Source: an uncultured Lachnospiraceae bacterium (lineage in GTDB: Bacteria > Bacillota > Clostridia > Lachnospirales > Lachnospiraceae). From it: a DNA stretch of 63,203 nt. Both the position numbers and the translations under genes were made by a program. Of the stretch, positions 40,602-47,530 are shown one piece after another. Where the stretch lies: the NCBI GenBank assembly GCA_947625015.1, contig CANQMR010000020.1, forward strand, positions 1 through 63,203, in the 5' to 3' direction. Under the pieces are notes generated by a model that saw nothing but the letters and a program-made list of their open reading frames with translations, was not told where the DNA came from and made no database searches. Within the stretch, counting starts at the first letter, position 1. Every line of letters begins with the position of its first letter.

Positions 40602-41157
40602 ATCTTCCCTCTGTTCCCCTATTCCCTATCTCCCGTTTCCGGCAGGCAATATTCTTTCCCGCCCTTTTGTATTGGAAACGCCGCCAGAGGGGCAGTATCC
40701 TTTCCTGTTTTTCCCGCACTGTTTTCGGTTTTAAGAAATCCTGCTGACGGGCTGTCCTGCATGTTTGATTGCATGTGCTTTCGAAGAACTCACACCGGGA
40801 AGGGGTGACTGGGAAACATCTTAAGCCCCTTTGAAAACGCCGGTACTTGCGGAGGACATAAAAGTTTATCCTATTTGATAGACTTAGATGTCCTCCGCTT
40901 ATGTACCGCTGCGTTTTCAACGGAGCGAAAGCGTGGCTGTAAGATGTTTGCCCAGCACCCCTAACCCGGTGCTCAGACACTTCTTCGCACATGCATCATG
41001 CAGGACAGACCGGCAGCGGATTTCTAAAAAACCGCGTGTCGGGAAAACAGGAAAGGATACTGCCCCTCTGGCGGCATACAAGTAAACATTAAGGGCGGAA
41101 AGGCACCCTGTCTGCCGGAAATCAGGATGCCTTCTAAATGGGGAACGGTGGGAAGAT
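40602..41157. repeat. Giant hairpin repeat, copy A
   Basis: About 556 nt that fold into one long imperfect stem. Paired blocks from outside in: 40602-40609/41150-41157, 40613-40619/41140-41146, 40636-40645/41112-41121, 40654-40666/41091-41103, and a perfect 32-bp block 40680-40711/41044-41075. The inner core follows, with blocks such as CTGTCCTGCATG/CATGCAGGACAG, AAACATCTTA/TAAGATGTTT, TGAAAACGC/GCGTTTTCA and CGGAGGACAT/ATGTCCTCCG around a small loop near 40873. The core (40709-41047, 339 nt) recurs at 46740-47078 with 8 substitutions. It fills the gap between the ABC exporter stop (3 nt away) and the Hpt gene. Short reading frames inside it are by-products of the palindrome. Confidence 0.92.
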
Positions 41158-45727: not shown

Positions 45728-46588
45728 CTACTCTTCTGCCCCTTCTGTATTTTCCTCTTCCGGCATCTTCCGTATCCGCACTTCTGTAATCATTCTTTCT
45801 TCCCACTCTAAAGCCTCAAACAAAAAACCCTTATAGGGAATGCGAATCCGCTCCTTTTTCTCCGGAAGCCTTCCAAACTCATAAAGCATGAAGCCGTTGA
45901 CCGTATCAATGTCCTCCTCCGGGAACTCAATGTCGAACCGCTCTTTCAGCTCCTCCAGCTTCGTACTCCCCTTAACAATATAACCGTCTCCTGCGGCCAT
46001 TTTCATAATATCCGTTTCTTCCTCGTCGTGTTCGTCTAAAATATCTCCCACAATGACCTCAAGAATATCCTCTAAAGCCACCACGCCTTCCGTCTGTCCA
46101 TATTCATCTACCACGATAGCCATATGATTCTTGGCTGCCTGCATCTGATTAAACAGCTTACTGATTTTCTGGGTTGGCGGAATAAAAAAGGGTTCGGTCA
46201 CCACTTCCCTGATTCTCTGCTGCGGATTCTTCATATACGCCGCCACAGCATCCTTCATATGTAAAATTCCAATCATATTGTCCATATCCTCTTCATACAC
46301 CGGATACCGGGAATAATGATTGGCAAGCATAATGTCAATCGCCTCCTGCATATCCATATCCGCTTCCATACAGACCATTTTCTGTCTCGGCGTCATTACA
46401 TCTTTGGCCTCTTTATCCCGGAACTCAAACACATTGGTAATCATTTCCGCTTCATCTGTATGTAACGTCCCCTGCTCCTGCCGTTCCTCAATAATGGATA
46501 ATATCTCTTCCTCCACAGCTTCCGCCTGGTCTTCACTGCTTTTCTTATTAAACAAAGATTTCAAACTTCCTGAACCGCCCTTTGCCAC
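45728..46588 (-). CDS. CorC/HlyC-type CBS-domain protein
   Basis: A 286-residue soluble protein. Two CBS domains cover about 65-185 (VMTPRQKMVCMEADMDMQEA, VVDEYGQTEGVVALEDILEV). The CorC_HlyC domain ends the protein (IDTVNGFMLYEFGRLPEKKE). The membrane (CNNM) domain of larger homologues is absent, as in E. coli CorC, which acts in Mg/Co handling. The start is a GTG with GAGGGG 7 nt upstream. Giant hairpin B lies upstream of its start, and the gene is followed by a clear terminator. Confidence 0.87.
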   Translation of the reverse strand: MAKGGSGSLKSLFNKKSSEDQAEAVEEEILSIIEERQEQGTLHTDEAEMITNVFEFRDKEAKDVMTPRQKMVCMEADMDMQEAIDIMLANHYSRYPVYEEDMDNMIGILHMKDAVAAYMKNPQQRIREVVTEPFFIPPTQKISKLFNQMQAAKNHMAIVVDEYGQTEGVVALEDILEVIVGDILDEHDEEETDIMKMAAGDGYIVKGSTKLEELKERFDIEFPEEDIDTVNGFMLYEFGRLPEKKERIRIPYKGFLFEALEWEERMITEVRIRKMPEEENTEGAEE

Positions 46589-46661
46589 CTTATAACCCCT
46601 CTTTCTTCTCTCTTTGTATATGAACTATAGCACTCCTCTTCCCCGCCGTCAACACCCGCCC

Positions 46662-47158
46662 CTCCCGGATTCCGGCGGATATCTTCACCGTATCCGCCAG
46701 TTTTATATTTGCGAAACCGCCGCAGTTAATTCTTTCCCATTTTCCCGCACTGTTTTCGGTTTTAAGAAATCCTGCTGCCGGTCTGTCCTGCATGTTTGAT
46801 TGCATGTGCTTTCGAAGAACTCACACCGGGAAGGGGTGACTGGGAAACATCTTAAGCCCCTTTGAAAACGCCGGTACTTGCGGAGGACATAAAAGTTTAC
46901 CCTATTCTATAGACTTAGATGTCCTCCGCTTATGTACCGTTGCGTTTTCAACAGAGCGAAAGCGTGGCTGTAAGATGTTTGCCCAGCACCCCTAACCCGG
47001 TGCTCAGACACTTCTTCGCACATGCAACATGCAGGACAGACCGGCAGCGGATTTCTAAAAAACCGCGTGTCGGGAAAATCGGGAAAAGAATTACCCTGCG
47101 GCGGTATATCTGCAATATTTAAGGCGGATACGGTGAAGATATCCGCCGGAATCGGGAG
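46662..47158. repeat. Giant hairpin repeat, copy B
   Basis: About 497 nt forming one long stem. Outer blocks: 46662-46667/47153-47158, a perfect 30-bp block 46669-46698/47123-47152, a perfect 10-bp block 46716-46725/47096-47105 and an A/T-rich block 46727-46738/47081-47093. The inner 339-nt core (46740-47078) matches copy A at 331 positions. The outer arms do not match copy A closely, yet pair within themselves. It lies 21 nt after the mazF stop and ends about 75 nt before the CorC-like gene. No promoter, protein or target-site duplication was found. Confidence 0.92.
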
Positions 47159-47179: not shown

Positions 47180-47530
47180 TTAGAGGGAAAGGCTGATTTT
47201 TAATGCCTGGTTGACGGTTCCCATAATGTCGTCGTCTAAGTGGCATACCTTTTCCCGGAGCCTCTGTTTATCAATGGTTCGTACCTGCTCTAACAGAATG
47301 ACGGAATCCTTTGCAATATGGCAGCGGTTGGCCGCCAACTCCACATGCGTGGGAATTTTGGCCTTATTCTGCCGACTGGTAATGGCCGCACAGATTACGG
47401 TGGAACTGTAACGGTTCCCTGCTTCATTCTGTATAATCAGTACCGGCCGGATTCCTCCCTGCTCAGAGCCCACAACCGGCCGTAAATCCGCATAATAAAT
47501 ATCGCCTCTCGTCACAAACACTGGTATCAC
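47180..47530 (-). CDS. mazF: MazF/PemK-family endoribonuclease toxin without an adjacent antitoxin
   Basis: A 116-residue toxin of the Bacillus NdoA (EndoA) type: [60 protein letters not shown] and [15 protein letters not shown]. It cuts single-stranded mRNA at short sites. In Bacillus the antitoxin gene ndoAI lies between alr and this gene; here the 165-nt gap has no convincing frame. The start is one of three in-frame GTG codons (47530, 47521 or 47515); GGAG lies 10 nt before 47521. Confidence 0.9.

Follow-up and report, generated by a model that had tools for sequence, protein, structure and literature searches.

A giant hairpin repeat of Lachnospiraceae with arms matched within each copy and a core inverted between close genomes

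When paired bases covary, this is usually read as proof that the fold is under selection. The window analysed here, a stretch of 63,203 nucleotides that is contig C20 of a Lachnospiraceae genome (G000; 2.82 Mb, 47 contigs), carries two giant hairpins with a near-identical core and different outer arms, and in each hairpin the arms are complementary to one another. The question raised by this locus is what keeps the arms of a copy matched: selection for a long duplex, as an initial annotation of the window proposed, or the mechanics of mutation in palindromes. The giant hairpin repeat is a real and striking feature, and about thirty paralogous palindromes together with their orthologues form a natural test of covariation from mutation mechanics versus selection, because covarying arms coincide in them with core inversion and with no strand bias.

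Two hairpins in the window and their family

The hairpin under study, copy B, occupies 46,662–47,158 on the forward strand, as do all its parts described below, and was delimited by nested inverted repeats, RNA folding and 29 long matches in the genome. Its 497 nt fold with −313.9 kcal/mol, where 100 shuffled sequences average −143 and none does as well (z −29.5), and it holds no ORF of 100 aa or more, as befits a non-coding MITE. Copy A lies at 40,637–41,120 on the same strand, runs from a left TTCCGGC to a right GCCGGAA, has its core at 40,709–41,047 and its apex at 40,814–40,946, and is overlapped by one mechanical ORF of 131 aa. The 339-nt core of copy B (46,740–47,078), recognized by its conservation among copies, by comparison with copy A and in an alignment of 30 copies, differs from that of copy A at 8 of 339 positions in an ungapped comparison. 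Outside the core, direct identity between the two copies falls to 7, 5, 4, 7 and 6 of 20 in five 20-nt windows on the left (4–7 per window) and to 10, 5, 7, 12 and 8 of 20 in five right-hand windows from offset 340 (5–12 per window). Each copy has TTCCGGC at a similar distance from the core, starting 70 nt before it in copy B and 72 nt in copy A. The outer arms of copy B, at 46,665–46,698 (copy-specific by inverted-repeat search and own-partner test) and 47,123–47,156 (inverted-repeat search), are 34 nt long and 97% complementary, and within them 46,669–46,698 is the exact reverse complement of 47,123–47,152, a perfect 30-bp block. On all these points the initial annotation was correct. The conserved core also contains a hypervariable segment, found in alignments by eye at 46,780–46,789 on the left side and 47,033–47,042 on the right, where 5–6 nt differ among copies and the pairing is largely kept in each.

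A search of G000 with copy B found at least 29 places matching 335 nt or more of the query, a lower bound because 40 of 65 candidates were scored, and also fragments, some of them at contig ends. The giant family is thus dispersed in many copies in this genome, as a MITE would be. The close relative G023 has the same giant family, including an orthologue of copy B at 98%. When 60 genomes were searched with copy B, 8 matched, and outside G000 and G023 the match was confined to a short apex piece at about query positions 268–312. With a looser apex pattern, matches appeared in 16 of 26 genomes from the genus, G000 having 35 of them, and the reversed control pattern had no match in the same 26 genomes. 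G000 also has a second, short-armed apex subfamily with GCGAAACGCT-like outer ends on contigs C3, C6, C15 and C30 (L163–L166). A phage or plasmid origin was rejected, having found no match in the searches. Among the papers listed by literature searches aimed at the element, several of them poorly targeted, no description of it appeared.

Copy B is flanked on one side by the stop codon of a PemK/MazF-like protein gene (47,180–47,530, reverse strand), which adjoins the hairpin base, and on the other by a promoter-like site just outside the hairpin (46,624–46,652, reverse strand) before a gene for a protein with CBS and CorC_HlyC domains (45,728–46,588, reverse strand); both genes were identified by ORF and domain search. 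One promoter-like site was found and 0.7 were expected in shuffles, which is no evidence alone. The initial annotation had pointed to close relatives as the place to look for empty sites, and the element is indeed absent in the four nearest relatives examined (L037–L040), where the junction is short. Copy B is therefore an insertion in the G000 lineage. In one of the four (L038) a small terminator-like hairpin is found at this junction. In another Lachnospiraceae genome a related apex element (L079, 2947–3046) lies just downstream of an ndoA-like gene, at the junction that copy B occupies in G000, and may represent an independent insertion or a shared site. By crude ORF calls, giant copies are intergenic and occur in both orientations. 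The strands of the left and right neighbouring genes in G000 and G023 are −/− in 20 cases, +/+ in 15, −/+ in 11 and +/− in 6, and in other genomes, in the same order, 19, 12, 6 and 4, with 7 more that have one side missing. These mixed neighbour strands, which likewise rest on crude ORF calls, led us to reject a cis element that keeps one orientation towards its neighbouring genes.

Matched arms and inverted cores

The arms of the family co-vary within each copy, as the initial annotation had suspected. The best partner of the left outer arm was the right arm of the same copy in 28 of 29 G000 copies, the exception being L019 (25 of 29 with loose anchors, before better anchors gave 28), and the median pairing score was 103 with the own arm and 42 with others, the lowest own score being 76. 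In three outward steps from the core anchor, the innermost at 0–35 nt and the outermost at 70–105 nt, own pairing scored 34, 28 and 40, and left-arm similarity among different copies 42, 21 and 14, against a far-flank baseline of 11, 12 and 11. Because similarity between copies fades outward while own pairing stays strong, the inner arms are a common inheritance and the outermost arms private to each copy. The suggestion that the arms are homologous therefore holds for the inner arms (42 against a baseline of 11) and hardly for the outermost (14 against 11). The initial annotation had also named unrelated arms as a finding that would count against it, and this applies in part, in that little sequence relationship is left between copies in the outermost arms. 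A similar arrangement is found in G135, where 13 copies have a near-identical 69-nt apex (median 2, maximum 4 differences) and private arms, the own arm being the best partner in 12 of the 13.

Comparison of G000 with G023 gave 26 pairs of orthologues, 15 of them with both flanks aligned at length. The core had the same orientation in 9 of these 15 pairs and was inverted in 6, copy A and its orthologue L160 being one of the latter, so that at 6 of 15 loci the core occurs in both orientations between two genomes, as would be expected of an inverton. Among the remaining 11 pairs, L004/L159 had the same orientation (second flank 34 bp), pairs with one aligned flank gave eight same and one inverted, and L028/L137 is an unconvincing orthologue (flank identity 70%). 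Copy A/L160 and L017/L149 show mirrored columns outside the core that end within the arms, and the switch in L002/L160 falls in a perfect 32-bp arm segment. In L007/L157 the two genomes have different outermost repeats of 14–16 nt, and the difference affects both arms at once. The trimmed outer arms of 19 pairs, L030 included, showed 7 concordant, 47 one-sided and 6 mirrored changes; a first count that took in part of the core had given 10, 85 and 15. By our rough estimate independent double changes would produce fewer than 1 concordant change, against the 7 counted. Of 10 pairs of short-armed elements in a second genome pair, G255/G380, 8 allowed a judgement and showed no inversion; the changes were concordant in 7 cases and one-sided in 44.

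In L030, the G023 orthologue of copy B, which lies at the end of contig C90, 74 bp of flank form an exact mirror image, most probably because the assembly folded back at a palindrome. This copy is absent from the 15 pairs with both flanks, and mis-assembly is an unlikely source of the flips and the matched arms.

Our preferred explanation, with a probability of roughly 0.55, is that the element is a dispersed, non-coding, MITE-like palindrome whose arms are kept matched by exchange inside each palindrome, the giant form being MITE-derived and probably immobile. During hairpin extrusion or replication, one arm may serve as template for the other, or the arms may recombine. Such an exchange would copy a change in one arm into the other, would let the matching creep outward into local DNA and would flip the core now and then. 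The element would first have spread as a transposase-dependent, IS4-like MITE, and the giant form of the G000 lineage would be an enlarged derivative, probably no longer mobile. Matched arms combined with a flipped core are the trace that either template switching or recombination between inverted arms would leave. According to the excerpted text of PMC8604942, template switching between inverted repeats homogenizes arms and inverts spacers, and the corresponding part of PMC8794818 has RNA hairpins created and maintained by this process. These quasipalindrome mutations thus have arm homogenization and spacer inversion in common with the giant hairpin (PMC8604942, PMC8794818, both as excerpted). 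The spacer inversions that PMC8604942 describes in coding genes, in yeast, have spacers of 2–5 bp in the excerpted portion, whereas the giant hairpin encloses more than 300 nt and is a paralogous repeat family. Recombination between the arms would fit no less well than template switching, and may fit better on account of this difference in spacer length. Some results count against exchange. Changes on one arm only are more frequent than concordant ones, a pattern that stepwise compensation would produce as well, and perfect arms are not longer in inverted pairs (12–33 bp) than in non-inverted pairs (16–43 bp). Exchange would also have to be mainly confined to the arms, or the asymmetry of the core selected, because the core keeps its left-right asymmetry among the copies listed in the alignment of 30.

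Selection for a long duplex, as a hairpin RNA transcript or as cruciform DNA, would match the arms by point mutation and subsequent compensatory mutation. It would account for the pairing of arms in all 29 copies scored, and agrees with the excess of one-sided over concordant changes between orthologues (47:7) and with the strong structure-type covariation across species in the apex of about 100 nt, both of which favour the initial annotation. Under selection for a transcribed duplex, G-U pairs would be expected to be tolerated above A-C mismatches on the transcribed strand, an excess that is absent. In the outer arms G-U and A-C mismatches numbered 56:54, so that no strand is favoured, and in the middle segment 10:19. 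The 24 copies behind these counts include L030, and 3 more of the 27 attempted lacked anchors; these trimmed-arm counts replace those from untrimmed arms (G-T 147, A-C 155). In a set of 113 elements that holds at least one G000 locus, L131, A-C mismatches on the apex strand even exceeded G-U, 208:124 (101 of the 113 counted, of which almost all come from other genomes). Selection for a duplex also leaves the six core inversions unpredicted, which arm exchange does predict, and the near-baseline similarity of the outermost arms among copies counts against it. We consider this account unlikely. What stands of the initial annotation is that copy B is a second copy of a repeat, with homologous inner arms, and that the arms covary; the covariation can be explained without selection for a long duplex, against which the missing G-U excess and the inverted cores count. 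With the caveats given above, arm exchange explains the covariation better than selection for a long duplex does; the apex looks selected, and the long arms need not be.

The inverted cores could also reflect an inverton-like switch, in which site-specific or homologous recombination uses the arms as recombination sites and arm matching is a by-product. The 6 of 15 loci that differ in core orientation between close genomes, and the change of orientation within the perfect arm segment of L002/L160, are in line with such a switch. It would, however, require sites in arms that differ among copies, which therefore offer no common recombination site in the outer arms, and beside neighbouring genes whose orientation is not fixed; it is unlikely. 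Insertion into pre-existing palindromes, the outermost arms being target DNA that was already palindromic, would agree with outermost arms that are private to each copy and with sites that are intergenic by crude ORF calls. It is at odds with the homology of the inner arms among copies (42 against 11), with the ndoA–CBS junction, which by eye has no long palindrome in the four relatives, and with the absence, at 49 giant-family places, of a target duplication that would fix the ends, and is very improbable. The same can be said of an assembly artefact, in which the assembler made the mirrored arms or flipped the cores. L030 is one clear case of this kind, but the perfect arms span only 12–43 bp in the 15 pairs, both flanks are assembled in all six inverted pairs, and the arms are imperfect and differ from copy to copy.

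The apex as a structured motif

At the tip of the core, copy B has an apex (46,845–46,977) in the form of a three-way junction, identified by covariation and by a match to our apex covariance model R1 (82.1 bits). Its three parts are a basal helix, a long helix in which two bases bulge out, and a short side hairpin of two pairs with a GNRA-type loop. Double changes occurred in 14 of 23 pairs when 49 sequences from several species were compared, and double-changed cells numbered 174 against 49.9 in shuffles, counts that carry no correction for relatedness. The covariation score was 0.411 against 0.167 in the control, a level above control as in a structured RNA family, for the apex only. When partners were slid, paired cells in the apex fell from 94.8% to 29–50%.

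The loop started with G-N-purine in 113 of 113 apex instances, a set that includes the G000 and G023 copies and was partly fetched with a pattern favouring G-N-A-A. An overlapping set of 113 elements, from a search pattern that favoured GNRA, had GNRA loops in 109, AAAA in two and mis-parsed loops in two. Since such patterns served to fetch part of the first set and to find the second, the lack of GNYA loops carries less weight than it might seem to. On the apex strand, G-U pairs outnumbered A-C mismatches by 42 to 5 in our sum over the covariation table, with 30 of the 42 G-U in three columns. The G-N-purine loops and this G-U excess point to RNA, with single-stranded DNA as a less likely alternative, and our best guess, from these sequence features, is that the apex acts as RNA.

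The apex resembles structured RNA families in Rfam in its covarying three-way junction with a GNRA-type loop, but it stays below gathering scores: with Rfam release 15, neither the hairpin of the window nor 11 loci reached one, the best weak scores being 15.3 bits (cut-off 65) and 14.1 bits (cut-off 45). A known Rfam RNA was accordingly rejected as the identity of the apex. The apex may, in a tentative reading of rather low probability, be a functional RNA class found across much of the Lachnospiraceae, the long arms of the giant form being a self-editing shell that is rewritten through arm exchange and flips the orientation of the RNA. Such an RNA would possibly act on host transcripts or on the mobility of the element itself, its carriers being transposon-like palindromes.

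Distribution, short carriers and related repeats

The covariance model R1 matched 121 of 299 genomes of Lachnospiraceae, in 120 of 298 genera, at E 1e-4 or better, and many of these genomes had at least 13 matches. A draw from the order gave 22 of 246 genomes and a draw from the phylum 4 of 299, and every listed match fell within the Lachnospiraceae. The family was assigned through the PemK-like protein beside copy B, since its named relatives mostly bear the title Lachnospiraceae or a related one. A structured motif is thus present in 121 of the 299 genomes sampled from this gut-associated family; a single genome can have up to about 35 pattern matches, and no Rfam family matched the motif at its gathering score in the loci searched.

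In other genomes the apex often lies in elements of about 206–215 bp with TAGGYRATTGCGAAAC-like ends and terminal inverted repeats. Direct repeats of 10–13 bp flanked the ends at 12 of 42 end-bounded places in the loci retrieved, whereas shuffled partners gave 0.34 with repeats of at least 8 bp, and 7 of the 12 places with direct repeats hold the apex. Eight end-bounded places of 51–52 bp lack the apex and four of them carry direct repeats, so these ends do not require the apex for their movement. In G004, where the end-sequence pattern had 206 matches against 24 for the control, L327, L328, L329 and L331 are minimal palindromes of 51–52 bp that consist of two facing TAGG-type ends without an apex and have direct repeats of 11–12 bp. 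One apex element, L135, has the ends CAATGTCATTTAGTTA and a 10-bp direct repeat. These differ from the TAGGYRATTGCGAAAC-like ends, so at least two types of end carry the apex.

The first 13 bases of the L135 ends, a single apex element, are shared with an IS4-family element in G180. This element (L307, approximately 1051–2790), an insertion sequence, spans about 1.74 kb; its 18-bp ends read CAATGTCATTTAGATAAT, and it is flanked by a 10-bp target duplication, CTGTATGAAC. Its transposase matched NCBIfam NF033592 at 145.5 bits (cut-off 115) and Pfam DDE_Tnp_1, and a motif search found no apex in it. IS4-type transposases were present at 12 places in 5 of 7 genomes. TAGG-type ends were rejected as the ends of these transposases, since 0 of the 12 places were bounded by such a pair, and no transposase with the ends of the giant family came up among them either.

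The giant family resembles the bacterial MITEs of IS4-type insertion sequences in being dispersed and non-coding with inverted ends. Its apex relatives come closer still, with elements of about 210 bp, some with target duplications of 10–12 bp and one sharing IS4-family ends. Unlike such MITEs, the giant family lacks any detectable target duplication; conservation is lowest in its outer ends, and its core is found inverted from one genome to another. Only 2 of 49 giant-family places had end repeats of 9 bp or more, against 4.48 with shuffled partners, and 14 against 13.46 at 8 bp; the giant family as a simple MITE with target duplication was rejected, its end repeats not being above shuffled. 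Among 110 elements, a symmetric scan for direct repeats detected 21 with at least 9 bp, where shuffled partners gave 9.45, and because of this expectation most of these repeats are chance or lie away from the ends. The stem-loop repeats surveyed in PMC2267715, bcr1 among them, are likewise multi-copy and intergenic with conserved secondary structure in the excerpted text, where bcr1 is much smaller than the giant hairpin, at 167 bp. The text of PMC2267715 does not name the Lachnospiraceae, and the same excerpts do not mention arm covariation or inversion.

Some apex matches occur in other arrangements. In L240 of G159 (1288–1952), about four units of 164 bp follow one another in tandem, and every unit has a complete apex hairpin plus a short spacer. 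At several places on contigs C8, C22 and C26 of G338 apex matches come in pairs about 190 bp apart and in opposite orientation, like two facing elements.
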